A stretch of DNA of 64,000 nt from IMG/VR virus record IMGVR_UViG_3300030090_006322, positions 27,434-91,433 of that record. One strand, given 5' to 3'. This document shows, in pieces, positions 20,740-62,731 of this stretch. The stretch is from a virus. How positions within the stretch are numbered: position 1 is the stretch's first letter; every line of letters begins with the position of its first letter. The notes under the pieces are model-generated. The model had not been told where the DNA came from and searched no databases. It saw only the letters and a program-made list of their open reading frames with translations. The position numbers and the translations under genes are program-made.

Positions 20740-20807
20740 AAATATTATATAAATATAAATCAGAAATTTTTTTAAATTCTGTGGAAAAAGGAAAGCCAGA
20801 AGATACA

Positions 20808-48300: not shown

Positions 48301-49339
48301 CTTGCTGACCAATTCCTAATACTCTTGCTTTCCACTCTGCCATCCCCTCTAATCTTTCTGCTTCCTGCTTTACTGCCTCTTTTTGCATTTCTGCAATTCT
48401 TATCATTGTCTGCCTTTCTTCCTCTTCTTGAAAAAGCTGCACTATAGACAAAAACGAAGCGTTCTCTTTGTTTAGCTTTTTCATCCTCTCGCTTCTGTCC
48501 CCTTGAAGCTTCTTTGTTAGGTTCTCAATACGAGTTTCGCATTGATGATACTCTGAACTCTTGGTTTTGATAATTTCCGCAAGCCTGATAGACATTTCTT
48601 GCTGCTCATCTGCCTCATCAAACATACTGTTAAGTTTATTTAAGTGGGCGCTGATAACTTCTAGATTAATAACCTCTTTGCATACATTTAAATACAAATT
48701 AATTTCATCAGCAGTCAAATCTGGCTTGTCCCAAGTTAAACGCACAAATTCATGTTCAAACAGAACTCTATCCTCTTCATTTAAAAAATTGTTAATAATT
48801 TTTAGAAATCTTGAGTTAGAAAGGTTAACTCCGAGTTTTTCTACGCAAATTTGCTTTTGTCTGTTAAGTTTCGATTCATTTAACCCCAAACCAGTGGCAT
48901 CATTGATTTTTTTGATGATTCTGGATGAAGACTTCGGTGCAATGTATGAATTGAGAGCGCCTGAATCTTGAGATGGTAAAATGTCAGGATTAACCTCTCT
49001 GATTTCAGCTAACACAGCTCTTTGCTCTGCACTTAGAGGTCTGACAATTCTAGAAGGGAAAACAATTTTAGCTATCTCCAAAGAAGACATCCCTTCTTCT
49101 GCTTGTTGAATTATAAATTCTTTTTGTTCGTTTGTGAACTCTATGCTCTCTGCTGGAACTCTCCCCGTTGTTTTAAAGTCTATAGAGTTTTCTACCAAAA
49201 ACTTTCTAACAGCTCGCCCTTCTTTAGATCTTCCGTCTAAAGAGTCATCTTCAAAGCACTGCTTTGTCAGATCAATTAAGTTAGGAATTTTTGATGCGTT
49301 TTCCCTTAAAAAATCTTTCTGTTCTTTAGTTAGGTCCAT
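48290..49339 (-). CDS. HTH/coiled-coil protein, small terminase candidate
   Basis: 349 aa. Two related N-terminal units (LTKEQKDFLRENASKIPNLI and FTNEQKEFIIQQAEEGMSSL) look like repeated helix-turn-helix modules. A long coiled coil fills the C-terminal third (LAEIIKTKSSEYHQCETRIE). DNA-binding N-terminus plus coiled coil upstream of terL is the pattern of a small terminase subunit. It may alternatively be a regulator. Confidence 0.5.
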   Translation of the reverse strand: MDLTKEQKDFLRENASKIPNLIDLTKQCFEDDSLDGRSKEGRAVRKFLVENSIDFKTTGRVPAESIEFTNEQKEFIIQQAEEGMSSLEIAKIVFPSRIVRPLSAEQRAVLAEIREVNPDILPSQDSGALNSYIAPKSSSRIIKKINDATGLGLNESKLNRQKQICVEKLGVNLSNSRFLKIINNFLNEEDRVLFEHEFVRLTWDKPDLTADEINLYLNVCKEVINLEVISAHLNKLNSMFDEADEQQEMSIRLAEIIKTKSSEYHQCETRIENLTKKLQGDRSERMKKLNKENASFLSIVQLFQEEEERQTMIRIAEMQKEAVKQEAERLEGMAEWKARVLGIGQQDVI

Positions 49340-50012
49340 CTTCTATAATATCTTGGTCCCTTAGTATTTCCATAGCCACTTGTAGGAACTTCTTTTTTAA
49401 ATTCTTCACTTGTCTATAGCCAAGCTTTCTTTTTTGAGCGGATATTTTATAACCCATGAATTTAGCAACGTCCTCTTCATTATTTTTATCAAAGTAAAGC
49501 ATTCTGTAAGCAGTATAATGAATATTACTTAAACGGCGCTTCATCTCTCCATCCAACTTTTCTAAAGAAGAATTAAAGTCAAAATCAACATATTGTTTAC
49601 TTGTGACTTCTTTTACAAAATCTTCAGTAGATAATGGTATTTTTATTTCTAACGCGGCTTTTTTAGATTTTTCCCACTTTTGACAAATCGGGCATATTGA
49701 TGAATCATGATTTGAAAATTGATAATCTGGACACGGATTAACATAATTACCGTAATGGTTTCTTATGAGGTTGCGAATTTGATTAGATATAATTCTGCCA
49801 ATCCAAGGTTCAAGCGGTCTCTCTTGATCCCACATGTGCCATTTTCTAGAAATGTGAAGTTTGATGATTTGTTGAACATCATCAAAATCAAACCACCTGA
49901 CAGCATTTAACCTCCACTTATACTGCTGTCTTCTTATCGCGGCATCAATTACTTCAGAAAAGTCTTCGTATGTATAATCACCCTTCTTTTTTCTTTTCAT
50001 CAATAAATTCAT
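49326..50012 (-). CDS. sigma70-family sigma factor with Cys-rich insert
   Basis: 228 aa. Region 2-like text FDDVQQIIKLHISRKWHMWD, PLEPWIGRIISNQIRNLIRN matches the core-binding and -10 region of small sigma factors. It is followed by an unusual insert NPCPDYQ...ICPICQKW with three cysteines, which may bind zinc, and then a region 4-like helix pair (EEDVAKFMGYKISAQKRKLG). This second sigma factor, next to late genes, is a candidate for late transcription. ATGs at 50012 and 50000 are both possible starts. Confidence 0.7.
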   Translation of the reverse strand: MNLLMKRKKKGDYTYEDFSEVIDAAIRRQQYKWRLNAVRWFDFDDVQQIIKLHISRKWHMWDQERPLEPWIGRIISNQIRNLIRNHYGNYVNPCPDYQFSNHDSSICPICQKWEKSKKAALEIKIPLSTEDFVKEVTSKQYVDFDFNSSLEKLDGEMKRRLSNIHYTAYRMLYFDKNNEEDVAKFMGYKISAQKRKLGYRQVKNLKKKFLQVAMEILRDQDIIEDGPN

Positions 50013-52054: not shown

Positions 52055-52210
52055 TTACTGATTACCAACTACCATAAGACCAAAATTTGCCGTAGCATAA
52101 GAAATCCAGATCACACCCCAACCATAATCCCTCTTCATAAAATAAGCAAAAGCAACGAGAGCATACATGACCCCAGCTACCAATGGGACATACTTTGTTA
52201 TATCGTCAAG
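52055..52210 (-). CDS. two-helix small membrane protein, 51 aa
   Basis: Starts with TTG at 52210 and is hydrophobic in two segments: YVPLVAGVMYALVAFAYF and WGVIWISYATANFGLMVV, separated by MKRDYG. Comparable short two-helix proteins are found in other marine phages. Minus-strand TATAAT, 12 bases before the TTG, could be the -10 of its promoter. The non-ATG start keeps confidence moderate. Confidence 0.6.
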   Translation of the reverse strand, partial: LDDITKYVPLVAGVMYALVAFAYFMKRDYGWGVIWISYATANFGLMVVGNQ

Positions 52211-52438
52211 AGTCACTTTGAATTATAGGGTCTGATTATTTTTTTTAAACAATAAATGGAACTCATGCCCCCGTTTACCACGCCCAGACAATTGGGTGGG
52301 GGTTTCTCGTTGATAGATTGATAATGGACTCCCCCCGCCAGTTTGCCACGCAAACGCAAACTAATTTTTTCAGAAATGGGGTAGGGTTGTCAAGCCCTTT
52401 TTTAATAAAAAAAAAGATAAAAAAAAGATAAAAAAAGC
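52211..52438. other. divergent intergenic region
   Basis: No gene seen. It contains a minus-strand TATAAT near 52223-52228 (with a TTGTTT farther upstream) for the small membrane gene, a GC-rich palindromic stretch about 52268-52305 (CCCA and TGGG arms inside CCCCC and GGGGG), and a run of A-rich sequence before the first leaderless promoter. An origin or regulatory role cannot be tested here. Confidence 0.4.
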
Positions 52439-52473
52439 TTTACTTTTGTTTGATTGTGTGCTATAGTTACTAC
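52439..52473 (+). promoter_or_regulatory. leaderless promoter P1
   Basis: TTTACT, 17-base spacer, TATAGT, then 6 bases to the ATG at 52474. The -10 hexamer spans -12 to -7, so the ATG is at +1. Confidence 0.75.
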
Positions 52474-52644
52474 ATGAAAATAAGCAACTTTGAATTGAAC
52501 GACAGCGTAACTTTTAAGCATGGCGAGAGCCTTGAGTTCGTTGACACAGGCATAATCTTTCACATAGAAGATAATTGCCTACACGTTGAGGTCAAAGAAC
52601 TCGATGAGGTCTTTGAGGTAATCGCTGAAGAAATCGTAAAATAA
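52474..52644 (+). CDS. hypothetical acidic protein, 56 aa
   Basis: First gene of the small-gene region, starting MKISNFELNDSVTFKHGESL. Acidic and probably a small beta barrel (VTFKHGESLEFVDTG). I start at ATG 52474 and not at the longer frame from 52450 because the ATG falls exactly at the +1 position of promoter P1. No ribosome-binding site is present, consistent with a leaderless transcript. Confidence 0.65.
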   Translation: MKISNFELNDSVTFKHGESLEFVDTGIIFHIEDNCLHVEVKELDEVFEVIAEEIVK

Positions 52645-52657
52645 TACAAAAAAAAAC

Positions 52658-52692
52658 TTGCTTTTAACTTTAACCTGTGCTATAGTAGAAAC
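52658..52692 (+). promoter_or_regulatory. leaderless promoter P2
   Basis: TTGCTT, 17-base spacer, TATAGT, 6 bases, ATG at 52693. Confidence 0.8.
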
Positions 52693-52911
52693 ATGACAGA
52701 AATTAAAAATCAAATTGGAAACGGCGCGGAAATCGTGTCACAAGGTAAATGGTTCATCGTAACTGACACAGACCTAGAAAATGGTCTTGTGTGGGCTATG
52801 GATCAAGACGGCGGCGAGGAAGCAATTTCTCTCGACGCAATCGACGATATCAGACTAGAAGATATCGTAACCCGCGACTGGTCGCCAATGCTCAACAAGT
52901 TGAGCATCTAA
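52693..52911 (+). CDS. hypothetical acidic protein, 72 aa
   Basis: MTEIKNQIGNGAEIVSQGKW onwards; strongly acidic (DDIRLEDIVTRDW) with beta-strand character. Unknown function; an acidic DNA mimic or inhibitor is conceivable but not supported by any motif. Leaderless start from P2. Confidence 0.65.
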   Translation: MTEIKNQIGNGAEIVSQGKWFIVTDTDLENGLVWAMDQDGGEEAISLDAIDDIRLEDIVTRDWSPMLNKLSI

Positions 52912-52939
52912 AAAAATAAAAAAAAAGATACTTTTACCC

Positions 52940-52974
52940 TTGACTTTTAACTCAAACCCTGCTATAGTATAAAT
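52940..52974 (+). promoter_or_regulatory. leaderless promoter P3
   Basis: TTGACT, 17-base spacer, TATAGT, 6 bases, ATG at 52975. Confidence 0.85.
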
Positions 52975-53175
52975 ATGTTAGTAATTAATCCAGAACTCCT
53001 AAACCGCACTCGCTACATTGTCACCTTTAACGGCCGCAAGGTCAAGTGTTTCCCTTCAACATATGGCTCTCACAATGGTGAGCCAATCTGCGCGGGTGAA
53101 ATCATGGAGGGCGAACACAAGGGCAAAAACACATCCGTCACAGGTGAAGCCGCTCGCATAGGATGCGAAAAATAA
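52975..53175 (+). CDS. hypothetical basic protein, 66 aa
   Basis: MLVINPELLNRTRYIVTFNG then GRKVKCFPSTYGSHNGEPIC. Small and probably beta-rich, with three cysteines. Unknown function. Leaderless start from P3; the gene is followed directly by the next leaderless promoter. Confidence 0.65.
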   Translation: MLVINPELLNRTRYIVTFNGRKVKCFPSTYGSHNGEPICAGEIMEGEHKGKNTSVTGEAARIGCEK

Positions 53176-53189
53176 AATAAAATAAAAGC

Positions 53190-53224
53190 TTGCGTTAACT
53201 CCACTTATAAAGTATATTCTAATC
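53190..53224 (+). promoter_or_regulatory. leaderless promoter P4
   Basis: TTGCGT, 17-base spacer, TATATT, 6 bases, ATG at 53225. Confidence 0.8.
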
Positions 53225-53416
53225 ATGACAGAACAAGAAAAAATCGACCAACTAAAAGATCAAATCTTTAAACTCCAAATGGTAATGAAAGGCGTTTCAG
53301 GCATCGCCGCCGCAGGTGCGGCATGGCAAGAGACATCCGCTTTTAACAAGCAGACCTTTAAAAGAATCGAGAGCCAACTTGATGAAGCAGTCGAGGCAAT
53401 CGAGACCACCCACTAA
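53225..53416 (+). CDS. hypothetical helical protein, 63 aa
   Basis: MTEQEKIDQLKDQIFKLQMV then a short Gly/Ala patch GIAAAGAAWQ and a second helix with an acidic end. Coiled-coil likely. It is probably co-transcribed with the membrane gene 38 bases downstream, since that gene has no promoter of its own that I can see. Leaderless start from P4. Confidence 0.65.
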   Translation: MTEQEKIDQLKDQIFKLQMVMKGVSGIAAAGAAWQETSAFNKQTFKRIESQLDEAVEAIETTH

Positions 53417-53453
53417 CACACACAAAAAAATCTAACACACACACAAAAAAATC

Positions 53454-53705
53454 ATGAAAAAATTCTTCTCTACTCTCAATCACTTCATTGACCGCTTTCT
53501 ATTCTCTGCTATGGTATGCATAGCGTTTAACTTCGTAATCATCATGATCGCCGTCTTGATTGGTAGCGGTCCCGCACTTTTCGAAAGCGTCTTGCGTGGT
53601 TGGGATGGTGCCGACTTTCTTGTTGTAATGTTAGGACTGCCAGCACTCTGGGCGGTTGTGTGGATGTTAGGGGATGCCCTTGTAAAATGGGTTCACAAAT
53701 TCTAG
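53454..53705 (+). CDS. small membrane protein, 83 aa
   Basis: Two or three transmembrane segments: FSAMVCIAFNFVIIMIAVLI (about residues 17-36) and FLVVMLGLPALWAVVWML (about 55-72). Topology uncertain. It lies behind the gene at 53225 across a CA-rich tandem repeat and is followed by a strong terminator. It may act at the host membrane, for example in superinfection exclusion or lysis, but nothing specific is visible. Confidence 0.65.
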   Translation: MKKFFSTLNHFIDRFLFSAMVCIAFNFVIIMIAVLIGSGPALFESVLRGWDGADFLVVMLGLPALWAVVWMLGDALVKWVHKF

Positions 53706-53730
53706 GCGGGTGACCGCCGCTGTCATGGAG

Positions 53731-53765
53731 CCTCGTCACCGAGTGGAGTCGGTGGCGAGGTTTTT
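53731..53765 (+). terminator. intrinsic terminator
   Basis: CCTCGTCACCGA and TCGGTGGCGAGG pair over 12 bases (one G-U), with a GTGGAG loop, followed by five T. It ends the P4 transcript just before repeat R1. Confidence 0.85.
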
Positions 53766-53784
53766 ACTTGACAAGAAAATTGCG

Positions 53785-53866
53785 TTGTAAGTCGTTGACG
53801 CTCAACGAGTTACAAGGGCGCGGCCCCCCGCGCCTCGTAAGTCATTGATACTAAGTGAGTTACGAA
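53785..53866. repeat. composite repeat R1
   Basis: Dyad TCGTTGA-CGC-TCAACGA within TTGTAA/TTACAA arms, then a 7-bp GC hairpin GGCGCGG-CCCC-CCGCGCC, then a second dyad TCGTAAGTCA/TGAGTTACGA. First of eight copies between 53.8 and 61.5 kb. Confidence 0.85.
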
Positions 53867-53889
53867 GCAAAAAAAACAATAAAAAAGGC

Positions 53890-53923
53890 TTGTGTTGCGG
53901 GGTGAGTGTGCTATAATACCCCC
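53890..53923 (+). promoter_or_regulatory. leaderless promoter P5
   Basis: TTGTGT, 16-base spacer, TATAAT, 6 bases, ATG at 53924. An A-tract lies before the -35. Confidence 0.8.
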
Positions 53924-54091
53924 ATGAGCATCAAAGAAGAGGCCACTAAAACAGATCGCTACATTGTCTACCATCAGTGGTCTAAGGATGAGGAGTTCCG
54001 AGGCACACGGGCCGAGTGCGAGGCTTGGGTTGCAGCGTTCAACCTTCCCAAGTTCGCCAAAACCTTTTTCATCTCCCACGAAAGCAAATAA
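53924..54091 (+). CDS. hypothetical protein, 55 aa
   Basis: MSIKEEATKTDRYIVYHQWS then KDEEFRGTRAECEAWVAAFN. I start at ATG 53924, at +1 of P5; the frame extends upstream to 53906 but without support. More GC-rich than the structural genes. It resembles the next gene in layout (a beta strand, then EAKAW/CEAWVAAF helix), so the two may be distant paralogues. Confidence 0.65.
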   Translation: MSIKEEATKTDRYIVYHQWSKDEEFRGTRAECEAWVAAFNLPKFAKTFFISHESK

Positions 54092-54108
54092 AAAAGATTA
54101 AAAAAGGC

Positions 54109-54142
54109 TTGCGCCCACTCTCACACCTGATATAATACCCGC
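54109..54142 (+). promoter_or_regulatory. leaderless promoter P6
   Basis: TTGCGC, 16-base spacer, TATAAT, 6 bases, ATG at 54143. Confidence 0.85.
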
Positions 54143-54364
54143 ATGACAGTTAAGAGAGTCACCGAGTCCCGCTACCATCTCCAGATCGCCGTGCGTGGGG
54201 GCGGCACCTATACGAACGGCGCATTCGACACATATGCGGAAGCGAAGGCATGGCGCAACGCCTACGCCCCCGCTGCCGCGATTGTCTTCCGTTCCGTGTT
54301 GCGCTCCTATAATATGGACGAAGACACCCCCGCCTCTCCCGCGTGGGAATATAGGAATCGCTAA
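54143..54364 (+). CDS. hypothetical protein, 73 aa, GC-rich
   Basis: MTVKRVTESRYHLQIAVRGG then DTYAEAKAWRNAYAPAAA. GC-rich codon use unlike the structural genes. A helix resembling that of the previous gene (AEAKAWRNAY versus ECEAWVAAFN) suggests a small related family. Function unknown. Leaderless start from P6. Confidence 0.65.
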   Translation: MTVKRVTESRYHLQIAVRGGGTYTNGAFDTYAEAKAWRNAYAPAAAIVFRSVLRSYNMDEDTPASPAWEYRNR

Positions 54365-54380
54365 AAAGCGAAAATAAATC

Positions 54381-54414
54381 TTGCGCTTCTCTCAATCTCT
54401 ACTATACTACACAC
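54381..54414 (+). promoter_or_regulatory. leaderless promoter P7
   Basis: TTGCGC, 16-base spacer, TATACT, 6 bases, ATG at 54415. Confidence 0.85.
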
Positions 54415-54699
54415 ATGACTGAAACAGACATCATGACCCGCCCGTCCGATACCTACTTTGTAGTGACCGCCGCTCACTACGGTGACACCACTAAGCGCTG
54501 GGTTGTGGCTGGCACTGCCAGTCAGACCGAGGCCGTGACTCTGGGTGAGAGGCAGGTCGCTGGGATGGTGAGCGGATTCGCTAACCGTGCCGAGGCACTT
54601 GAGACCTACCCTGACCTTGACCCCAAGCCTACGGGCTGGGACCACGACCCGCAGGGATGGGTTAGCTATATGCGCGACTGGGAGGAACACAGCAACTAA
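54415..54699 (+). CDS. hypothetical protein, 94 aa, GC-rich
   Basis: MTETDIMTRPSDTYFVVTAA then AGTASQTEAVTLGERQVAGM. No domain recognised; one small alpha/beta unit is likely. Its stop is 3 bases before repeat R2. GC-rich like its neighbours. Leaderless start from P7. Confidence 0.65.
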   Translation: MTETDIMTRPSDTYFVVTAAHYGDTTKRWVVAGTASQTEAVTLGERQVAGMVSGFANRAEALETYPDLDPKPTGWDHDPQGWVSYMRDWEEHSN

Positions 54700-54702
54700 G
54701 CC

Positions 54703-54783
54703 TCGTAACTCACTGATAGTCAAGGGGTTATGGGGGGCGGCCCCCCGCCGCCTCGTAACTCGTTGACAGTCAACGACTTACAA
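54703..54783. repeat. composite repeat R2
   Basis: Same plan as R1: TCGTAACTCACTGATAGTCA dyad, GC hairpin with GGGGCGG and CCGCC, then CTCGTTGACAGTCAACGACT. It begins 3 bases after a stop codon. Confidence 0.8.
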
Positions 54784-54930
54784 GCCTTTATACGCATGAC
54801 CGATCTGGGGGGCTGTCAAGTAAAAAAACACACTATTTACTATTTATCTATTTATCCCCTGACCTACAGTCTGTGGCCTGTCAAGTATAATTTAAAAGAA
54901 AAAAAAAAGAAAAAAAAGATTAAAAAAGGG
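54784..54930. other. AT-rich spacer without gene
   Basis: Contains two copies of TGTCAAGTA about 65 bases apart and a long A-rich run (54900-54927) leading into promoter P8. I see no coding frame with a credible start. Confidence 0.4.
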
Positions 54931-54968
54931 TTGCACTAAAAACAAAAGTGTGGTATACTTACAGCATC
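54931..54968 (+). promoter_or_regulatory. near-leaderless promoter P8
   Basis: TTGCAC, 17-base spacer, TATACT, but 9 bases to the ATG at 54969, giving at most a 3-base leader. Confidence 0.75.
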
Positions 54969-55139
54969 ATGACAGAGACAAAATCAGATCTTCAACAACT
55001 CCTCCAAGAACAGACTGCGGTCGCACTTATGAGAGACGACATCTCGTTTCTTATCGGTTGGACTAAAGCCGACAATCCAGAAATCGCTCAAAGACTTGAG
55101 GACATCTTGGCTAATCACACAAAAAATAGAAATAAGTAA
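54969..55139 (+). CDS. hypothetical helical protein, 56 aa
   Basis: MTETKSDLQQLLQEQTAVAL then ISFLIGWTKADNPEIAQRLE. Start chosen at ATG 54969 just behind P8. It begins a small operon with the next three genes, each separated by one base or overlapping. Function unknown. Confidence 0.6.
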   Translation: MTETKSDLQQLLQEQTAVALMRDDISFLIGWTKADNPEIAQRLEDILANHTKNRNK

Positions 55140-55140
55140 A

Positions 55141-55332
55141 ATGATAAATCGAATCGATCAAATCCTAGCAAACCTAAACTGTGCCGCTGTAGATGGCGGC
55201 TTCTGCCTCTTTGTAAAAGATGGCGAAATTGTAGCGAAGGATCTTCTTAGCGAAGAGCCTCTTGAGTTTAATATCAGATTCGTCGGAACTGACATCTCTG
55301 ACATCGAAGCAAAACCACTCACCAAAAAGTAA
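55141..55332 (+). CDS. hypothetical protein, 63 aa
   Basis: MINRIDQILANLNCAAVDGG then FCLFVKDGEIVAKDLL. Start ATG 55141 lies one base after the previous stop; the upstream extension overlaps that gene. An alpha/beta protein without known motif, co-translated in the P8 operon. Confidence 0.6.
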   Translation: MINRIDQILANLNCAAVDGGFCLFVKDGEIVAKDLLSEEPLEFNIRFVGTDISDIEAKPLTKK

Positions 55333-55333
55333 C

Positions 55334-55708
55334 ATGGGACTAGACCAATACGCAAAAAAAGTAAAGAGGGAATACAATCATGAGACCCTCACCGAGACAA
55401 TCGTCAAAACTGAAATAGGTTACTGGCGTAAACACAATGCACTAGAAGGTTACATGGCTGACCTTTACCGCACTAAGACAGGAGATCAGGGAGAGTTTAA
55501 TTGTAAAACTCTTTCTCTTGATAAAGACGACTTGGACACCTTGGAAGCGGTGGTAATAAGAGGCAACCTGCCCGAAACCGTAGGTTTCTTTTTCGGTAGT
55601 TGCACCAAGGACAACGAGGAATACAAAGAAAATGATCTTGAGTTTATAGCGAAGGCTAGGAAATGCCTTGCTAATGGCTTTGAGGTAGAATATACATCTT
55701 GGTGGTGA
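55334..55708 (+). CDS. conserved MGLDxYA-type phage protein, 124 aa
   Basis: Begins MGLDQYAKKVKREYN and contains EIGYWRKHNALEGYMADLYR and LPETVGFFFGSCTKD. This opening and the YWRK-N-H/L-E region are shared by a widespread family of uncharacterised phage proteins. Start ATG 55334 is one base after the previous stop. Function unknown. Confidence 0.75.
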   Translation: MGLDQYAKKVKREYNHETLTETIVKTEIGYWRKHNALEGYMADLYRTKTGDQGEFNCKTLSLDKDDLDTLEAVVIRGNLPETVGFFFGSCTKDNEEYKENDLEFIAKARKCLANGFEVEYTSWW

Positions 55709-55890
55709 TGAGAGAAGGAGCATACAACAAACAACAAACGCATAGCGACCGACAAATGCAATATATGACTCACCTTTCTAAAAGTGTTGGTGAGGCTTGC
55801 GATGCGTGGCTGGAAAAAAGAGGGATGAAACAAAAAAGTTGGAGGCAGCAAAAAGATGAGAAATTCCAGAAAAAAAACTTGACACCGTAA
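55708..55890 (+). CDS. hypothetical basic protein, 60 aa
   Basis: MREGAYNKQQTHSDRQMQYM, rich in Gln, Lys and Met. Start ATG 55708 overlaps the previous stop as TGATG. Its own stop codon, TAA at 55888-55890, is the TAA of repeat R3, so the gene ends inside the repeat. Unknown function. Confidence 0.55.
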   Translation: MREGAYNKQQTHSDRQMQYMTHLSKSVGEACDAWLEKRGMKQKSWRQQKDEKFQKKNLTP

Positions 55891-55963
55891 CTCCTTAAGC
55901 CTCAACGACTTAGGAGGGCGCGGCCCCCCGCGCCGCGTAACTCGTTGATAGTCAACGACTTAC
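55886..55963. repeat. composite repeat R3
   Basis: CGTAACTCC...CAACGACTTAGG, GC hairpin GGCGCGG-CCCC-CCGCGCC, then CGTAACTCGTTGATAGTCAA. The TAA of the first arm is the stop codon of the preceding gene. Confidence 0.85.
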
Positions 55964-56000
55964 AGGGCAAAAAAAAGATCATAAAAAAAGAAAAAAAGCC

Positions 56001-56034
56001 TTGCGGCTCTGTGAGTCTGTGCTATGTTACCAGC
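56001..56034 (+). promoter_or_regulatory. leaderless promoter P9
   Basis: TTGCGG, 16-base spacer, TATGTT, 6 bases, ATG at 56035. Confidence 0.8.
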
Positions 56035-56241
56035 ATGACAGTTCAAAATCCTATTGGCCAACTCGCCCCTATGAATGAAACCGACCTACGCGAAATGCTC
56101 GATGACGGGCCACGCGCAGGTTGCTGGAACCCTTCGCCTGATGAGGTGCAGGAGGTTCTCGCGCAGATCCACGCCGATATGGGCGACCGCCACCCGCAGT
56201 GGTCCTCGGATGTCGAGGATCAAGATGAGATCCCAATGTAA
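56035..56241 (+). CDS. hypothetical acidic protein, 68 aa, GC-rich
   Basis: MTVQNPIGQLAPMNETDLRE then EVQEVLAQIHADMGDRHPQW; ends in an acidic stretch. Start chosen at ATG 56035, +1 of P9. Its GC-rich codon choice sets it apart from the structural genes. Function unknown. Confidence 0.65.
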   Translation: MTVQNPIGQLAPMNETDLREMLDDGPRAGCWNPSPDEVQEVLAQIHADMGDRHPQWSSDVEDQDEIPM

Positions 56242-56265
56242 TTGTAACCCTCTACCCCTAAAATC

Positions 56266-56505
56266 ATGAACCAGAGCAATATCTATAAAATGACAGAAAT
56301 CGAATACCAGCAGAACCCGCCTTCGTGCGGGGGCAACTGGGAGTGTGGGTCTGTGACCCGTGTGTGTATGTCGCGCTCGCCCAAGGTGGCGGTCGCGATG
56401 GCGGGGGATATCACCGTGCGCTATGAGGGTGTGGACGGTGTGCCTATCATGCGCCAGCGCATTCTCACCAAGGGCGGCAAAGTGATCTTCGATAAGTGGG
56501 ATTAA
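56266..56505 (+). CDS. hypothetical protein, 79 aa
   Basis: MNQSNIYKMTEIEYQQNPPS then CGGNWECGSVTRVCMSRSP. Four Cys in the first half could bind a metal, but the spacing is not a standard finger. It follows the previous gene by 24 bases without its own promoter, and repeat R4 begins 3 bases after its stop. Confidence 0.6.
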   Translation: MNQSNIYKMTEIEYQQNPPSCGGNWECGSVTRVCMSRSPKVAVAMAGDITVRYEGVDGVPIMRQRILTKGGKVIFDKWD

Positions 56506-56507
56506 GC

Positions 56508-56589
56508 CGCGTAACTCACTAAGTCTCAACGACTTAGGGGGGCGCGGGGGCCGCGCCCTCGTAACTCCTTGATAATCAACGAGTTATGA
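56508..56589. repeat. composite repeat R4
   Basis: GCGTAACTCACT...CAACGACTTAGG, a GC hairpin with GGGGC and GCCCC-type arms, then TCGTAACTCC...CAACGAGTTATGA. It begins 3 bases after a stop codon. Confidence 0.8.
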
Positions 56590-56624
56590 AGCAAAATAAA
56601 AATGCATTTAAATGCAAAAAAACA

Positions 56625-56660
56625 TTGCTATTTAACTATTTATGGGTTACTATTTGAACC
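56625..56660 (+). promoter_or_regulatory. leaderless promoter P10
   Basis: TTGCTA, 17-base spacer, TACTAT, 7 bases, ATG at 56661. The -10 match is weaker than the others. Confidence 0.65.
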
Positions 56661-56966
56661 ATGAGAACAGACGACAAGCAAAGACAAGAAGTTACTTTGG
56701 AGCGCAGGATCTGCGACCGCTGTAGAGATGTTGATGGATTGACCTTCGGTTACATCGGTAACTTTGAAAGCTGGGGAGATGATCGCAAGCTTTTCATCTG
56801 GATTAATGAGGATGAGATGAGAGAGAAGAATGGCAATCAAGCTGCTCTCTGGGAGTGTGTTGCTCGCGATCTTAATGTGAAAGATGCCTGTCTCGCTCTT
56901 GCGGCAATCAAAGGTTTTCAGATGGGTAAGCTCTATAGCTCTATCAAAATCAACAAGAAGCTCTAA
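56661..56966 (+). CDS. hypothetical protein, 101 aa
   Basis: MRTDDKQRQEVTLERRICDR then CRDVDGLTFGYIGNFESWGD. A CxxC is present near the start (ICDRC). Its TAA overlaps the next ATG (TAATG), so the two genes are translationally coupled. Function unknown. Start just behind P10. Confidence 0.65.
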   Translation: MRTDDKQRQEVTLERRICDRCRDVDGLTFGYIGNFESWGDDRKLFIWINEDEMREKNGNQAALWECVARDLNVKDACLALAAIKGFQMGKLYSSIKINKKL

Positions 56967-57184
56967 TGAAGACACGCATACACGTTAACCAGCACAAGAT
57001 CCGCAGTAATGCAAAGACTGGCGAGAGGGAGCCAGTGCTTACGGTCAAGACTTACAAAAGCAACACTTACTGCAAGACGGTCAACATAAACGGCCCTTGT
57101 AAAGTTGTTTACTCGCCTGATAACCCGCTGCCCTGCGGTGCGAAGGTCTGGATTGAAACAGAAGAAGGTGTTGTATGTGATTGA
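56966..57184 (+). CDS. hypothetical protein, 72 aa
   Basis: MKTRIHVNQHKIRSNAKTGE then REPVLTVKTYKSNTYCKTVN and a hydrophobic end. Appears as a small beta-rich protein, of unknown function. Coupled to the gene before it. Its TGA stop lies in the first arm of repeat R5. Confidence 0.6.
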   Translation: MKTRIHVNQHKIRSNAKTGEREPVLTVKTYKSNTYCKTVNINGPCKVVYSPDNPLPCGAKVWIETEEGVVCD

Positions 57185-57250
57185 TACTTAACGACTTATG
57201 CGGGTCGCGGGGCCGCGCCCCCGTAACTCGTTGATGCTCAACGAGTTAGA
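57178..57250. repeat. composite repeat R5 (left arm shortened)
   Basis: GATTGATACTTAACGACTTA, a GC hairpin with CGGG and CCCG arms, then CCGTAACTCGTTGATGCTCA. The left arm is truncated because the preceding gene ends inside it. Confidence 0.75.
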
Positions 57251-57296
57251 CAACATAATACGCAGAAAAAAAAATCATTTTAATGCAAAAAAAAGG

Positions 57297-57330
57297 TTGC
57301 AAAGCCTATTTGTTGTGATATACTACGTCC
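57297..57330 (+). promoter_or_regulatory. leaderless promoter P11
   Basis: TTGCAA, 16-base spacer, TATACT, 6 bases, ATG at 57331. It drives the long form of the 57418 gene. Confidence 0.8.
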
Positions 57331-57382
57331 ATGAAATTGAGATTCCCCAAACTCTGGAGCAAAAAAAATAACAAATTGCCCC

Positions 57383-57417
57383 TTGACTTAACCCCGCTTA
57401 TGCCTTATACTACCATT
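57383..57417 (+). promoter_or_regulatory. leaderless promoter P12, nested in the upstream frame
   Basis: TTGACT, 17-base spacer, TATACT, 6 bases, ATG at 57418. It lies inside the reading frame opened at 57331. Confidence 0.85.
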
Positions 57418-57693
57418 ATGAAAAACGAAATCATGTCCACCCCATCCACCCTTCCTTCCAACCCTATCGCACTTGCCTCCGCACTGACTGGCAAGACTTT
57501 GGTATACAACGCTCGCAAGTCTACTGTTACCAGTGACAAGATGCGTGTGTTCAAAGTCGAGAAAGTCGATGACGTATTCACATCCGACTCCTCTGGTCAG
57601 CAGTGCGTAACCCTTTGGGCAAAGGATATCGACCAAGGCGGTCGCTTGGTCCCTCGGACCTTGCACGTTGTCGGTATCGAATCAGTTTCATAG
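57418..57693 (+). CDS. hypothetical protein, 91 aa (120 aa from an upstream in-frame start)
   Basis: MKNEIMSTPSTLPSNPIALA then a beta-rich segment CVTLWAKDIDQGGRLVPRTL. The ATG is at +1 of P12. The frame is also open from ATG 57331, at +1 of P11, which adds 29 residues including KNNKLPLDLTPLMPYTTI. Two leaderless mRNAs would therefore give long and short forms. The region is more GC-rich than structural genes. Function unknown. Confidence 0.7.
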   Translation: MKNEIMSTPSTLPSNPIALASALTGKTLVYNARKSTVTSDKMRVFKVEKVDDVFTSDSSGQQCVTLWAKDIDQGGRLVPRTLHVVGIESVS

Positions 57694-57769
57694 AGGGGAA
57701 ACATGATAGCGGGGGGGTGAGGTTGTTTTTGCTTATGTTCTACCTCACCTCCCTGCACTCACTTTTTAC

Positions 57770-57804
57770 TTTACAAACAACAAACCATACATTACATTAG
57801 CATC
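57770..57804 (+). promoter_or_regulatory. leaderless promoter P13
   Basis: TTTACA, 17-base spacer, TACATT, 6 bases, ATG at 57805. It may also drive the structured RNA that follows the gene. Confidence 0.7.
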
Positions 57805-58023
57805 ATGCCTAAATCACCAGAATCGATTCGTATCGAAGTTAAAAATAAAGACCAAGCCGCATTGCTTAACTATGCCTTGGGTATCGTTCACCAAACTCTA
57901 GCTGAAAGAATGTCAGAGGTAGCAGACGATAAGCTCGACAATTTTATGGACAATGTGAAGTGGACACGCAAACACGCTTCCGCATTGAACGAAAAGTTTT
58001 CTTTGGCTCCAACCGAGTCATAG
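57805..58023 (+). CDS. hypothetical helical protein, 72 aa
   Basis: MPKSPESIRIEVKNKDQAAL then NYALGIVHQTLAERMSEVAD. Helical after a short beta strand. Unknown function. The stop TAG at 58021-58023 lies on the 5' edge of the structured RNA region, so the RNA could be the 3' part of this gene's transcript. Confidence 0.65.
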   Translation: MPKSPESIRIEVKNKDQAALLNYALGIVHQTLAERMSEVADDKLDNFMDNVKWTRKHASALNEKFSLAPTES

Positions 58024-58369
58024 AAATTCGGAGCGGAACCGCAAAGCGATACTGGATATCCAGAAGCTCCTAAAAAACAACTTCACCTGAATTCTCTGTG
58101 GCTAGGGTGTCGTAAAACGCACAGAGGCTCCCAGCGTGTGGGCAAATAAACCGCTAGGTGGTAACAGTGACCAACTCTTAATTGACTGGCACTCGTCAAC
58201 AAGCCGACCCTCTCCCACTTTTCTAGACAGTGGGAGGGGGATATAACTTTCTGGAGGAAAGCCCCAACGGAGTGCTACCACAGATTGAAGCCGTCGATAG
58301 TGGTTCTTTAACCTAGAGCGGTCTTTAAATAGACCTTAATGACTCGAAACTATCGGCGGTTTCTTTTTG
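58022..58369 (+). ncRNA. candidate large structured RNA, no known class
   Basis: A coding-free stretch dense in helices. By coordinate: AAUUC 58025-29 with 58089-93; GGAGC 58030-34 with 58066-70; CUGG 58052-55 with 58060-63; CUCUGUG 58094-100 with 58120-126; CCCA 58130-133 with 58139-142; a long-range GUGGUA 58158-163 with 58276-281; AGUG-CCA 58166-173 with 58187-193 (bulged A); a 12-bp CCCUCUCCCACU 58208-219 with 58229-240; CUUUC 58247-251 with 58257-261; a 15-bp helix 58287-301 with 58349-363 that encloses hairpins at 58302-313 and 58320-335. UUUUUG follows the last helix. I compared RNase P, tmRNA and group I introns without a match in order. It may be processed from the 57805 transcript. 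Confidence 0.65.
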
Positions 58370-58382
58370 TTCTGTTAACTCA

Positions 58383-58466
58383 AGTCATAACTCATTGATA
58401 CTGAACGACTTAGCGGGGCGCGGCCCCCCGCGCCGCGTAACTCGTTGATACTCAACGACTTACGAG
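58383..58466. repeat. composite repeat R6
   Basis: GTCATAACTCATTGATACTG dyad, GC hairpin GGCGCGG-CCCC-CCGCGCC, then CGTAACTCGTTGATACTCAA. Directly follows the structured RNA. Confidence 0.85.
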
Positions 58467-58534
58467 GCAAAAACAAGCACAGCTTTCTGGGTATGTCAAG
58501 CAGAAAAAAAATAAAAAAATAAAACAAAAAAGGG

Positions 58535-58568
58535 TTGCATGAAATGAATTTTTCGGTATACTACTGGC
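58535..58568 (+). promoter_or_regulatory. leaderless promoter P14
   Basis: TTGCAT, 16-base spacer, TATACT, 6 bases, ATG at 58569. Confidence 0.85.
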
Positions 58569-59384
58569 ATGAGCTTAATCCTAGCCAAAAACAAAGTCAC
58601 TCGCGAACAACTTGTGAGTGCTGATTCGGACGCAGGTCTGATCATCGAAGGATTGGGTAAGAACGGCGTGGTCGCTAAGACCCCCGACCCAACCGACACC
58701 CACACCCCTATTCCCCACGCGCTTCTCGTTGATGAGGCGCATGAGGCTTTGGACCGCGCAGGTCTAGAGGTGTTGGAGGAAGAACACGCCCTTGGGCGTG
58801 GTGGACTCCGCTACTTTGGTGGCTTCGCCATCAAGGGGACGGATATGGAAGCAAGCGACCGCCGTTTGGTGGTTGGGCTTCGTAACGCGCACGACAAGTC
58901 CTTTGCGGCTTCCGTGTGCATCGGTAACCAGATGATGGTTTGCGAGAATCTTTGCTTCTCTTCGGATGTGAAGCTCGCTCGCCGTCATACAGCCAACATC
59001 GTGCGCGACTTGCCTCGCGTCCTTTCTTCGGCTGTGTCTCGCGTCATCTCCCACTGGAGTGACATGGGCAAGCGCATCGACGCTTACCAAGCGACCGAGG
59101 TTGCTCGCGACCGCGCCGCTGACCTCATCGTCAGCCTTGTGGACGCGAAAGCGTTTCCTGCTCGCGATGTCTACAAGGCAGTGCAGGAATTCCGTAACCC
59201 TCGCCATGAGGAGTTCAAAGGCGGCTCTCTGTGGACCCTTTACAACGGGATCACGGAGAATCTCAAAGGCGGTGACTTGACCAAGTTGCCACAGCGCACA
59301 ATGACTGTGCAGTCTGTCTTCGACAGGATCGCGGGGCATAGCCCCGAAATCCTCGATGCCGAGGAGGTCGCGCTTCCCGCATAA
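58569..59384 (+). CDS. DUF932-like protein
   Basis: 271 aa. VVGLRNAHDKSFAASVCIGN, QMMVCENLCFSSDVKLARRH and a helical C-terminal half match the DUF932 type found in many phages and plasmids; function unknown. The gene is GC-rich relative to the structural genes and is followed by a strong terminator. The ATG is at +1 of P14, so it is translated leaderless. It is the largest gene of the region. Confidence 0.82.
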   Translation: MSLILAKNKVTREQLVSADSDAGLIIEGLGKNGVVAKTPDPTDTHTPIPHALLVDEAHEALDRAGLEVLEEEHALGRGGLRYFGGFAIKGTDMEASDRRLVVGLRNAHDKSFAASVCIGNQMMVCENLCFSSDVKLARRHTANIVRDLPRVLSSAVSRVISHWSDMGKRIDAYQATEVARDRAADLIVSLVDAKAFPARDVYKAVQEFRNPRHEEFKGGSLWTLYNGITENLKGGDLTKLPQRTMTVQSVFDRIAGHSPEILDAEEVALPA

Positions 59385-59402
59385 GGGGTGAACCCATCAC
59401 AG

Positions 59403-59434
59403 ACCCGCTTCCCGAAAGGGGGGCGGGTTTTTTT
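59403..59434 (+). terminator. intrinsic terminator after the DUF932 gene
   Basis: ACCCGC (with an inner CCC/GGG around GAAA) and GCGGGT, then a run of seven T. Confidence 0.9.
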
Positions 59435-59481
59435 GTGCAGAAATAAAAAAGTTTTTCTTGACACGCGTTTAAGTAAGAAGG

Positions 59482-59563
59482 CTTGTAACTCGTTGAGTAT
59501 CAACGAGTTAGGGCGGCGCGGCCCCCGCGCCCTCGTAACTCCTTCAGCGTCAACGACTTACGA
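59482..59563. repeat. composite repeat R7
   Basis: TTGTAACTCGTTGAGTATCA dyad, GC hairpin with GGCGCGG and CCGCGCC, then TCGTAACTCCTTCAGCGTCA. Lies between a terminator and promoter P15, so here it is not the main transcription stop. Confidence 0.85.
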
Positions 59564-59586
59564 CTTGAATTAAAATGAATTTTAAT

Positions 59587-59620
59587 TTGACCAACCCTAT
59601 ACTTATGGTATAATACGCGC
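59587..59620 (+). promoter_or_regulatory. leaderless promoter P15
   Basis: TTGACC, 16-base spacer, TATAAT, 6 bases, ATG at 59621. Confidence 0.85.
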
Positions 59621-59803
59621 ATGGAAACGATAACTACTAAATCTTTTTGTGTTGATTATTGGGACTCTAAAGGCAATCACCTTTTGACTTCTGCCTATTG
59701 TAATAATACTGGATCTGAAGTTGACACCGAGCAATATGCTGATAAGAATCGCCCAATGCGTAATTGTATTTGGGAAGTCACAGAAATGAAACAAGAAGAC
59801 TAA
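59621..59803 (+). CDS. hypothetical protein, 60 aa
   Basis: METITTKSFCVDYWDSKGNH then TSEVDTEQ-like acidic segment and CIWEVTEM. Unknown small alpha/beta protein. Start at +1 of P15. AT-rich again, unlike the genes before it. Confidence 0.6.
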   Translation: METITTKSFCVDYWDSKGNHLLTSAYCNNTGSEVDTEQYADKNRPMRNCIWEVTEMKQED

Positions 59804-59805
59804 TC

Positions 59806-60021
59806 ATGGCTAATTCATATAATATAAGTTATAGTGTTATTGAGAGACATCCCGCACCATTCGACTTTATCTTTGAGTGGGACAATGGAACAGAAAAAAC
59901 ATTTATAGTTGTTTCATTGCATGGCGCGAAGGCACTAGCCGAAACATTTGAAAACTTCGGTTACGAACGCGAAGAGGGAAGCATTGAGTTCAGGAAAAAC
60001 TACGCGGTCGAATTCCCTTGA
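59806..60021 (+). CDS. hypothetical protein, 71 aa
   Basis: MANSYNISYSVIERHPAPFD then FIFEWDNGTEKTFIVVSLHG. Begins 2 bases after the previous stop; the extension upstream from 59764 overlaps that gene and is discarded. Beta-rich with a helix, no motif recognised. Part of the P15 operon. Confidence 0.6.
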   Translation: MANSYNISYSVIERHPAPFDFIFEWDNGTEKTFIVVSLHGAKALAETFENFGYEREEGSIEFRKNYAVEFP

Positions 60022-60038
60022 ATAAAAATTAATTTAAA

Positions 60039-60073
60039 TTGACAAGCCCAGGAAATAGTGTATACTCCCTCCT
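60039..60073 (+). promoter_or_regulatory. leaderless promoter P16
   Basis: TTGACA, 16-base spacer, TATACT, 7 bases, ATG at 60074. Confidence 0.8.
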
Positions 60074-60763
60074 ATGTCCAAGCTTCTAAATTCAGGAAAT
60101 CATAAAACAAGCAAGGGCGAAAAGTATGGTTGGATAACCTACGGCTTGCACCTTGCACCATATAACTTATCAGGAAAAAATGTTTGCTCTTCTGCTTCTG
60201 CTGGTTGTTCTACTGCTTGTCTCAATACTGCTGGTCGTGGAATCATGCATTCCGTTCAAGATGCCCGAGTTAAAAAAACACGAAGGTTTTTCGAGGATCG
60301 GGATGGATTCCTATCGCAGCTATACAAGGAAATCAAAAGCTCGATTAAAAGCGCAACGAGAAAACAAATAAATCATTGCTTCCGTTTGAATCTCACAAGT
60401 GATATTCCGTGGGAGAGTATGGTCGTAAAACAATTCCCCCAATCACAGTTCTACGACTATACTAAACACCTAAAAAGATTCGTTCGGTTCTTGGAAGGTA
60501 AACTGCCAAGCAACTATCACCTTACTTACTCAAGAGATGAGACAACACCTGATACATTGGTAAAGAGCTTGTGTGCAAGTGGTGGCAATGTGGCTGTTGT
60601 GTTTAGAGGAAAAAAGCTCCCCGCCAGATGGCTTGGAATAGAAGTAATAGATGGCGACGATTCGGACTTGCGTTTTCAAGATGGTGAGGGTAAGATAGTC
60701 GGGTTGCTAGAGAAAGGTCTAGCCAAGAAAGATGAAACGGGGTTTGTTGTTGAGCCATGCTAG
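60074..60763 (+). CDS. GP88-like conserved phage protein
   Basis: 229 aa. The N-terminal GWITYGLHLAPYNLSGKNVC, CSTACLNTAGRGIMHSVQDA and NHCFRLNLTSDIPWESMVV, then FYDYTKHLKRF, reproduce the pattern of the phage GP88-type family, known from actinobacterial and other phages. Cysteines at C-x6/7-C-x3-C suggest metal or redox chemistry, which is unproven. Start near +1 of P16. Overlaps the next small gene by 7 bases. Confidence 0.75.
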   Translation: MSKLLNSGNHKTSKGEKYGWITYGLHLAPYNLSGKNVCSSASAGCSTACLNTAGRGIMHSVQDARVKKTRRFFEDRDGFLSQLYKEIKSSIKSATRKQINHCFRLNLTSDIPWESMVVKQFPQSQFYDYTKHLKRFVRFLEGKLPSNYHLTYSRDETTPDTLVKSLCASGGNVAVVFRGKKLPARWLGIEVIDGDDSDLRFQDGEGKIVGLLEKGLAKKDETGFVVEPC

Positions 60764-60828
60764 ACCCTAATTGGATTGTAATAGTAATGGCTCTCCTGTT
60801 AACCTTAACTTGTTATAGAAAAAGATGA
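60757..60828 (+). CDS. micro-membrane peptide, 23 aa
   Basis: MLDPNWIVIVMALLLTLTCY then RKR: a single hydrophobic helix with a basic tail. Its ATG overlaps the end of the GP88-like gene and its TGA overlaps the next ATG (ATGA). The chain of couplings supports expression, though such a short frame could be chance. Confidence 0.5.
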   Translation: MLDPNWIVIVMALLLTLTCYRKR

Positions 60829-61049
60829 AGAAACCAAAAATCACATGGGAAGAGGGCATGACAAAATGCCTGGGCCTTTATACAGAAGCGCTGTTCAGGG
60901 GTGACAAGGACGAAGCTATAGATATCGGTCATCAGATGATCGCTATTGGAAAAACTCTGGACAGCACACAAAAGTTCCTAGAGAAACAAAACAAAACTTA
61001 CGATCAGTTCGGAGAGACTGTAAAAGCAATAAACACCAACTTAAACTAA
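60825..61049 (+). CDS. hypothetical helical protein, 74 aa
   Basis: MKKPKITWEEGMTKCLGLYT then ALFRGDKDEAIDIGHQMIAI, helical and probably TPR-like or helical-hairpin, followed by a coiled coil. Coupled to its neighbours by ATGA and TAATG overlaps. Function unknown. Confidence 0.6.
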   Translation: MKKPKITWEEGMTKCLGLYTEALFRGDKDEAIDIGHQMIAIGKTLDSTQKFLEKQNKTYDQFGETVKAINTNLN

Positions 61050-61213
61050 TGGATACATCAGCCAACGCACTAATAGATGACTTGAACGATATACTGTCTG
61101 ACTTTAAGAGTCATATGGTAGAAGCGTATGAAGAGAGAGAAGATGAGATGGAAGAGAAGATCGACAATCTCATAAAAGAAGTAAACGAATTGTTTAGCTC
61201 TAGCTATGTCTAA
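61049..61213 (+). CDS. hypothetical acidic coiled-coil protein, 54 aa
   Basis: MDTSANALIDDLNDILSDFK then YEEREDEMEEKIDNLIKEVN. Strongly acidic coiled coil. TAATG coupling at the start and an 8-base overlap with the next gene support translation. Confidence 0.6.
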   Translation: MDTSANALIDDLNDILSDFKSHMVEAYEEREDEMEEKIDNLIKEVNELFSSSYV

Positions 61214-61418
61214 AAAAACAGGAGGCAGACCGCGCAAAACGAAAGGTTTAATTGATGTGGCTAGATGGATGCCCCAGATAAGGCGGGTGTGTAGTCGCCA
61301 ACTTGTTTTGAATCAGCTAGATGCACTAGAGCGAGATCATACACTATCTGAAGGTAGGGTGGGAATAAAACATCGCATAGCGCAGATTAAAAAAGATGTA
61401 GCTAGGATACAGTTGTAA
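61206..61418 (+). CDS. hypothetical basic protein, 70 aa
   Basis: MSKKTGGRPRKTKGLIDVAR then a helical body; begins with a GRPRK AT-hook-like tract, which suggests DNA binding in the minor groove. Its stop TAA (61416-61418) is the TAA of repeat R8. Last gene of the plus-strand operon. Confidence 0.6.
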   Translation: MSKKTGGRPRKTKGLIDVARWMPQIRRVCSRQLVLNQLDALERDHTLSEGRVGIKHRIAQIKKDVARIQL

Positions 61419-61492
61419 CTCCTTGAGAATCAAGGGGTTACGGGGGCGCGGGGGCGCTCGCCTCGTAACTCGTTGAGTATCAGTGACTTATG
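61413..61492. repeat. composite repeat R8
   Basis: TTGTAACTCCTTGAGAATCA dyad, GC hairpin with GGGGGCGCG and CGCTCGCC-type arms, then TCGTAACTCGTTGAGTATCA. The first TAA is the stop codon of the preceding gene. Confidence 0.8.
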
Positions 61493-61510
61493 ACTGGGAT
61501 TCTGTAAAAG

Positions 61511-61540
61511 GCAAAAAGAAAACCCGCAGTTACGCGGGTT
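61511..61540 (-). terminator. intrinsic terminator for the minus-strand SprT operon
   Basis: AACCCGC and GCGGGTT form a 7-bp stem; on the minus strand it is followed by TTTCTTTTT. It ends transcription of the minus-strand genes 45 bases after the SprT stop. Confidence 0.75.
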
Positions 61541-61585
61541 CACTTATTTATTTGATTCTATTTGATCCTGCCTTATATTATTTAG

Positions 61586-62068
61586 TTAACATCGCACGAC
61601 CTGCAACTTGCCTTCTGTCTCTTGTCTCTTGCCTTGTAGCCAGACTCCATCCCAATTCTTATGCTTTGGTCTGCGGTAATAATATCTATAGACTTTACCT
61701 GTGTCCTTGTTGATTAGCTTATACTTTCCTTTTGTAGTTTTAACTGTGCCACCTCTATCTTCAGACTTATAACATCTCTCTGGTCTGGCCCCGACCTTCC
61801 GACACATACTTTTCCATACGTGGTCATGCCCATGTCCTGGGCCTGTAAGTGCGTGGGCGATCTCATGCAAAACAACATCTTTTGTTTCTTCTATTGTATT
61901 AAGATTCGCCAACACTTTGGTAATACCTATTTCTTTCTTACTGTATCTGCACTGACCGTATCGACGCACTGCTCTGGTGTCCCAAACGAACTTCCAATCA
62001 TCTATGCCCCACTTGTCCATCTGCTCCAGAGCAAACTCTTTTATTTTGTGTAGTTTAATCAGATCCAT
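61586..62068 (-). CDS. SprT-like zinc metalloprotease
   Basis: 160 aa. VVLHEIAHALTGPGHGHDHV gives the HExxH zinc motif and a third ligand His, as in SprT/SPRTN-type proteins. It may proteolyse DNA-protein crosslinks or a host factor; substrate unknown. The C-terminal half is basic with two Cys in MCRKVGARPERC. Follows the 62417 gene on the minus strand and is terminated at 61511-61540. Confidence 0.82.
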   Translation of the reverse strand: MDLIKLHKIKEFALEQMDKWGIDDWKFVWDTRAVRRYGQCRYSKKEIGITKVLANLNTIEETKDVVLHEIAHALTGPGHGHDHVWKSMCRKVGARPERCYKSEDRGGTVKTTKGKYKLINKDTGKVYRYYYRRPKHKNWDGVWLQGKRQETEGKLQVVRC

Positions 62069-62117
62069 TTTCTTAATGTGGTTATTAATAGCAGAACGGT
62101 TAAAATAAAAACTTCTA

Positions 62118-62417
62118 TCACTGGTTTGAGATGTGATGAATGTGTTTGTCTATATACTGCCCGAAATCAGCTATAGCCCGCAGGTGCTTCTGCCTCTCAT
62201 CATATGCCCTAGAGAATGCATTGTCATCATTGAAAGCGTCCTTCATAGGGTCGGAGTCCTGCACATAATAGTCTCTGCCGTGGAATGTGCAATCATTAAG
62301 TGCATCGCTTAAATCACTTAAAGCTTTTTGTATTTTTATATTGCCCCACAACAATGTTCTTTTATCTGTGCCGTTAAGATGAACTGTGGGGAGTGGATAG
62401 TCTTTTGTTTCACTCAT
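62118..62417 (-). CDS. conserved phage hypothetical protein, 99 aa
   Basis: MSETKDYPLPTVHLNGTDKR then LSDALNDCTFHGRDYY and a helical end with HLRAIADFGQYIDKH. The NGT...GRDYY pattern is seen in other phage proteins of unknown function. ATG 62417 is at +1 of leaderless promoter P17. Confidence 0.65.
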   Translation of the reverse strand: MSETKDYPLPTVHLNGTDKRTLLWGNIKIQKALSDLSDALNDCTFHGRDYYVQDSDPMKDAFNDDNAFSRAYDERQKHLRAIADFGQYIDKHIHHISNQ

Positions 62418-62452
62418 GCCTACACATTACTACCACCTACGGTGGTAGTCAA
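62418..62452 (-). promoter_or_regulatory. leaderless promoter P17 with palindromic operator
   Basis: Minus-strand TTGACT, 17-base spacer, TAATGT, 6 bases, ATG at 62417. The spacer and parts of both hexamers hold the perfect palindrome CTACCACC-TAC-GGTGGTAG (62430-62448), a likely repressor site. Confidence 0.75.
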
Positions 62453-62589
62453 GAATAAAAATGAATTAAAATTCCCACCAGAATAAACAAAACAAATAGT
62501 GTGGTTGGGCGCGGGGCAAAGAGCTTATTATACTCCCTAGCCTCATGTTTATTTCTTTGTCTTTCGGTCACTCTGGAACTCGCATACAT
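62449..62589 (-). CDS. small single-TM protein, 46 aa
   Basis: MYASSRVTERQRNKHEAREY then NKLFAPRPTT and a hydrophobic C-terminal helix LFVLFILVGILIHFYS. Basic N-terminus and a C-terminal membrane anchor. Its TGA stop lies within the -35 TTGACT of P17. Only a weak promoter can be suggested before it. Confidence 0.55.
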   Translation of the reverse strand: MYASSRVTERQRNKHEAREYNKLFAPRPTTLFVLFILVGILIHFYS

Positions 62590-62731
62590 AACATTAGTTA
62601 TTACGCGATTAATGTCCCGACCTGCAAAAAAGAAAAGTGTCGATTCCGTAACACATTATTTAGTTATTTACGTTCGATCCTACGACCTGGGCTTTTGTTT
62701 ATTTAGATTATTTGGTTTGAACTGGGCGATC

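Follow-up and report, generated by a model that had tools for sequence, protein, structure and literature searches.

Most work on leaderless translation, which is known to be less sensitive to kasugamycin, concerns single genes, or else Actinobacteria, Deinococcus and archaea. The lambda cI mRNA is a leaderless phage mRNA from a single gene, and leaderless transcripts reportedly also occur in Thermus phages. So-called TA-led leaderless genes, with a TANNNT motif about 12 base pairs (bp) before the start codon, have been described across bacteria (PMC3160421). In Cluster O mycobacteriophages (the Corndog group), the leaderless SigA promoters PL1, PR2, and PL2 were predicted to begin transcription at the first codon, and short dyad repeats lie between genes, where deletions were attributed to recombination between repeats (PMC4351075). 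In T4-like phages, PeSL cassettes, consisting of a stem-loop and an early promoter between modules, have been linked to gene shuffling (Arbiol 2010; Comeau 2014, as cited in PMC4503421). Here a stretch of 64,000 nucleotides from a marine phage (the window; positions 27434-91433 of the 91,433-bp virus record IMGVR_UViG_3300030090_006322) is described, in which a region of small genes carries promoters placed directly before their start codons and probably yields leaderless mRNAs.

The region, at 52.4-62.5 kilobases (kb) of the window, contains small open reading frames (ORFs), mostly on the plus strand, with a GC content of about 42-49% as compared with 30-42% in the remaining window. Seventeen sigma70-like promoters lie near an ATG, with spacers of 16-17 bp between their hexamers; the distance from the -10 hexamer to the ATG (the gap) is 6 bases in 14 cases, 7 in two and 9 in one (Table 1). 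A first-pass annotation had listed these same 17 promoter-ORF cassettes, and every one was recovered at its position with the reported gap and spacer. A strict scan for gap-6 sites ahead of ORFs of 50 amino acids (aa) or more gave 13 sites in 52201-62600; 200 dinucleotide shuffles averaged 0.04 and never gave more than 1, and the other 52 kb of the window gave a single site. Across the whole record, a pattern search yielded 9 matches in the forward and 0 in the reverse orientation, with 2 in the reversed control.

The position of the transcription start was approached by comparing the window with 142 related viral loci (1.65 Mb in all), counting promoters per gap ahead of ORFs of 40 aa or more and grouping genes into families by BLAST at E 1e-3. 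Gap 6 occurred in 61 non-homologous families, gap 9 in 19, gap 5 in 15, gap 7 in 13, and most other gaps in about 5-6, so that a comparison of these starts in related phages, which the first-pass annotation had proposed, supports its reading with recurrence in 61 unrelated families. When each gap-6 family was represented by a single member, the ATG was preceded by C in 50, T in 8, A in 3, and G in none. A pyrimidine thus stands at -1 in 58 of the 61, the start-site base signature of TA-led genes, and the -10 box likewise lies 6-7 nucleotides before the start codon. Other ORFs have C before the ATG in 126 of 592 cases (21%), and C(-1) is therefore specific to the gap-6 class. At transcription start sites the base at -1 is preferably a pyrimidine and that at +1 a purine. 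The C(-1)/A(+1) pattern matches this preference and so argues independently that the A of the ATG is +1; judged from these signals, transcription most likely starts there and the mRNAs are leaderless.

Orthologues of many cassettes in the related loci retain gap 6. In the DUF932 protein of cassette 14, diverged relatives keep the -10-N6-ATG geometry, a second group has gap 9, and a third, which has a leader and lacks a close promoter, begins at the same start codon. Since the promoter spacing varies while the protein start is constant, leaderlessness appears to be a clade property that changes.

Shine-Dalgarno (SD) cores (AGGA, GGAG, or GAGG at the right distance from the start) were found at none of 28 starts in the region, in line with the claimed lack of SD sequences at the cassettes and with the SD-free character of TA-led genes. 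The first-pass annotation had further held that operon genes elsewhere in the window carry SD sequences. This did not hold: cores precede 2 of 38 such starts, which is the chance level (shuffle mean 2.3), and there is no enrichment anywhere in the window. Its proposal of initiation at the A of the ATG thus stands on the gap-6 peak, C(-1), and the agreement of DUF932 starts, and loses the implied contrast with SD-led genes. About ten genes of the region have no promoter of their own. Because most of them adjoin or overlap the preceding stop codon, they are probably translationally coupled to the upstream gene.

A 75-bp element occurs in eight copies between gene groups. It consists of two 25-bp palindromes, TAASTCnnTGAnnnTCAnnGASTTA, with 25 bp of GC-rich sequence between them. 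In the window and related loci, 308 distinct copies were found in 65 loci; exactly 25 bp separate the halves in 271 of them, and in 28 the preceding ORF ends on the element's first TAA. An A-rich tract and a promoter often come after the element. In the clade of the window, a near-ATG promoter lies within 160 bp after the element in 52 of 83 cases, compared with 0.18 at random positions, so that, as in PeSL cassettes, the element directly precedes a presumed early promoter. Gene maps showed modules that are present, absent, or relocated between elements, as with the DUF932 module in loci L009 and L011. Gene adjacency was kept in 236 of 346 cases without an element and in 126 of 259 across one, a modest difference between comparisons that are not independent. 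Single copies fold well as RNA (z -3.8 to -5.7), and no U-tract was seen directly 3' of the elements in the window. A conserved RNA hairpin was set aside, as no covariation within the halves was found across copies; for the same reason the element is more likely a DNA-binding pair than an RNA structure.

Table 1. Cassettes, promoterless ORFs, and 75-bp elements, in window coordinates; the gap is given in bases
Feature	Position	Strand	-35 / -10	ATG (gap)	ORF	Remarks
Cassette 1	52439..52644	+	TTTACT 52439-52444 / TATAGT 52462-52467	52474 (6)	56 aa	
Cassette 2	52658..52911	+	TTGCTT / TATAGT 52681-52686	52693 (6)	72 aa	gap 6 in 13/13 relatives
Cassette 3	52940..53175	+	TTGACT / TATAGT	52975 (6)	66 aa	
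Cassette 4	53190..53416	+	TTGCGT / TATATT	53225 (6)	63 aa	gap 6 in 6/6 relatives
ORF without own promoter	53454..53705	+			83 aa	CA/A-rich leader; own gap-6 promoter in 8/14 relatives
E1	53788..53862	none				75-bp element
Cassette 5	53890..54091	+	TTGTGT / TATAAT	53924 (6)	55 aa	
Cassette 6	54109..54364	+	TTGCGC / TATAAT	54143 (6)	73 aa	
Cassette 7	54381..54699	+	TTGCGC / TATACT	54415 (6)	94 aa	gap 6 in 11/11 relatives
E2	54706..54780	none				75-bp element
Cassette 8	54931..55139	+	TTGCAC / TATACT 54954-54959	54969 (9)	56 aa	relatives with gap 9 (10) or gap 6 (9)
Three promoterless ORFs (55141, 55334, 55708)	55141..55890	+				adjoin or overlap preceding stop codons
E3	55888..55962	none				75-bp element; first TAA is stop codon of preceding ORF
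Cassette 9	56001..56241	+	TTGCGG / TATGTT	56035 (6)	68 aa	gap 6 in 15/20 relatives
E4	56512..56586	none				75-bp element
Cassette 10	56625..56966	+	TTGCTA / TACTAT	56661 (7)	101 aa	
E5	57174..57248	none				75-bp element
Cassettes 11 + 12	57297..57693	+	TTGCAA / TATACT; TTGACT / TATACT	57331 (6); 57418 (6)	120 or 91 aa	same frame
Cassette 13	57770..58023	+	TTTACA / TACATT	57805 (6)	72 aa	
E6	58388..58462	none				75-bp element
Cassette 14	58535..59384	+	TTGCAT / TATACT	58569 (6)	271 aa (58569-59384)	DUF932 protein
E7	59486..59560	none				75-bp element
Cassette 15	59587..59803	+	TTGACC / TATAAT	59621 (6)	60 aa	
Cassette 16	60039..60763	+	TTGACA / TATACT	60074 (7)	229 aa	Pfam GP88 protein; gap 6 in 12 relatives
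E8	61416..61490	none				75-bp element; first TAA is stop of ORF 61206-61418
Cassette 17	62118..62452	-	TTGACT 62447-62452 / TAATGT	62417 (6)	99 aa	only minus-strand cassette; gap 6 in 9 relatives

Two cassettes have features of their own. In cassette 8 the predicted +1 is the A of AUC-AUG; gap-9 starts in it and its relatives are kept as ATC-ATG, perhaps a leaderless start that lost its first codon, the second ATG being used instead. In cassette 17 the spacer between the hexamers is palindromic, with arms that co-vary in relatives, and this palindrome (noted at 62424-62452) is a candidate operator.

The host was approached through the phage proteins and through bacterial genomes. Relatives of the DUF932 protein in GTDB genomes belong nearly all to Verrucomicrobiota and Planctomycetota, which indicates such a host without proving it; a Verrucomicrobiota host is probable on this basis. 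At least 80 viral contigs carry the terminase at 86-100% identity. The phage records searched by DNA similarity gave no match, nor did a capsid protein search, and tRNAs alone matched in Rfam. When 388 Verrucomicrobiota genomes were searched with the leaderless pattern TATAMT-N5-C-ATGA against a reversed control, most were near control level, and high ratios were obtained in G207 (50:0), G336 (48:0), G283 (29:0), G286 (21:0), G087 (20:0), G020 (17:0), and G029 (14:0), selected for their high score and not a random sample. With a base other than C at -1, the same genomes gave 11, 1, 4, 1, 3, 8, and 1 sites, respectively. The leaderless-rich genomes were also rich in gap 7, near control at gap 5, and lower at gap 9. 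All 30 sites inspected in G207, G336, and G029 (loci L297-L326) precede ORFs of at least 60 aa, and 27 have a TGn-extended -10 box; the signature sits there on ordinary chromosomal genes. No gap-6 excess was seen in the stretches read from G080, G108, and G047, the first genomes sampled, and the signature is not general across the class of G029. Predicted leaderless genes of this type are thus present in some Verrucomicrobiota lineages. None of these lineages is tied to the phage as its host, and the host link is a candidate one. Some Verrucomicrobiota have been listed as SD-scarce (PMC10783764); no report of leaderless initiation as a standard mode in Verrucomicrobiota was found in the literature consulted.

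Taken as a whole, the sequence evidence makes it quite probable that this is an early region of leaderless, individually promoted cassettes in a phage probably infecting Verrucomicrobiota. The region would be the early, host sigma70-type part of a phage genome at least about 91 kb long. Most of its small genes would have their own promoter with the start point on the A of the ATG; the resulting mRNAs would be leaderless and presumably initiated by 70S ribosomes at the 5'-AUG. Promoter and ORF would then form a self-sufficient cassette requiring neither an SD sequence nor an upstream gene, and the promoterless genes would be reached through coupling to the preceding gene. In Verrucomicrobiota the use of SD sequences can be weak, some lineages appear to have leaderless genes, and the phage may exploit this host initiation for a modular early region. 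The 75-bp repeat would mark the ends of modules gained, lost, and reordered among relatives, and may contribute to their shuffling. A broader proposal, which is more doubtful, would be a widespread marine group of Verrucomicrobiota phages whose early programme is largely made of leaderless, individually promoted cassettes that have at their boundaries a 75-bp element dedicated to recombination or regulation, with leaderless initiation as standard in the host lineage.

Gap 6 could also have been spread by recombination that copied one promoter-start unit, and would then reflect common origin rather than selection for a leaderless start. Promoters within one genome are indeed alike (D3, D9, D10, D12), and ATGACAG is a common start. 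Gap 6 and C(-1), however, are retained across the 61 families in spite of widely varying spacers and discriminators, and unrelated bacterial genes share the gap and the -1 base; copying is an unlikely explanation. Another view accepts the promoters as real and places the starts elsewhere or at scattered positions, with short leaders, the position of the ATG being a by-product of compact intergenic regions. The 19 families at gap 9 and the excess over background at gaps 5 and 7 agree with it, as does the family of cassette 8, in which 10 relatives keep gap 9 as ATC-ATG. Compactness predicts neither a gap-6 peak that is one base sharp nor 82% C at -1, and we regard this view as quite improbable. 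It is very improbable that translation of the small ORFs begins further in or that they are no genes, which would leave the promoter-ATG adjacency without translational meaning: many ORFs are short (55-100 aa), but most proteins are conserved in relatives from the same ATG, and the DUF932 protein begins at the same residue in orthologues that have no close promoter.

Leaderless, individually promoted cassettes in a phage of Verrucomicrobiota are thus preferred, and several points weigh against them. Very remote homologues may count twice among the families, and the excess at gap 9, and less so at gaps 5 and 7, suggests that some mRNAs may carry leaders a few bases long. For three of the 17 cassette genes there is no detectable relative among the loci compared, which also fits ORFs that are no genes. 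As to the host, the terminase gave weak partial matches in only 5 of the 388 Verrucomicrobiota genomes, and gap-6 promoters were not enriched in 0.88 Mb of named Verrucomicrobiota and Planctomycetota DNA flanking DUF932 relatives, which implies that leaderlessness is confined to some lineages.

Outside the early region, GTGTAAW occurs 7-13 nucleotides before the ATG at 35009, 38868, 45490, 51178, 52050, and others, and recurs in relatives; it is a candidate late promoter with a short leader. The ORFs 49326-50012 (minus strand) and 20781-21392 (plus strand) are possible phage sigma factors; their matches, to Pfam sigma-70 region 2 (under the cut-off) and to a PHROG annotated as transcriptional regulator, are weak.

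The region offers 17 natural, putatively leaderless constructs in one place. The DUF932 gene, found with and without a leader in relatives, would allow the cost and benefit of leaderlessness to be compared directly. A leaderless promoter makes a gene portable in about 40 bp and may aid phages in swapping small early genes. The signature in some Verrucomicrobiota suggests that bacterial leaderless initiation is wider than the surveys consulted show. The promoterless genes, the module-boundary repeats, and the Verrucomicrobiota signature had not figured in the first-pass annotation. What is new is the density of cassettes, their pairing with boundary repeats, their recurrence across the clade, and the link to Verrucomicrobiota. 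TA-led bacterial genes are alike in having a -10 box that puts +1 on the start codon and no SD sequence; here such genes are found in a phage and concentrated in one region, and Verrucomicrobia are not mentioned in the available survey text (PMC3160421). Cluster O phages have predicted leaderless promoters and intergenic repeats in common with the present phage, with three such promoters compared to 17 here, another host, and another repeat (PMC4351075). PeSL cassettes likewise place a structured element and an early promoter between modules, whereas here the element is 75 bp long with two 25-bp palindromes at a fixed spacing of 25 bp and the promoters are predicted to be leaderless (PMC4503421).

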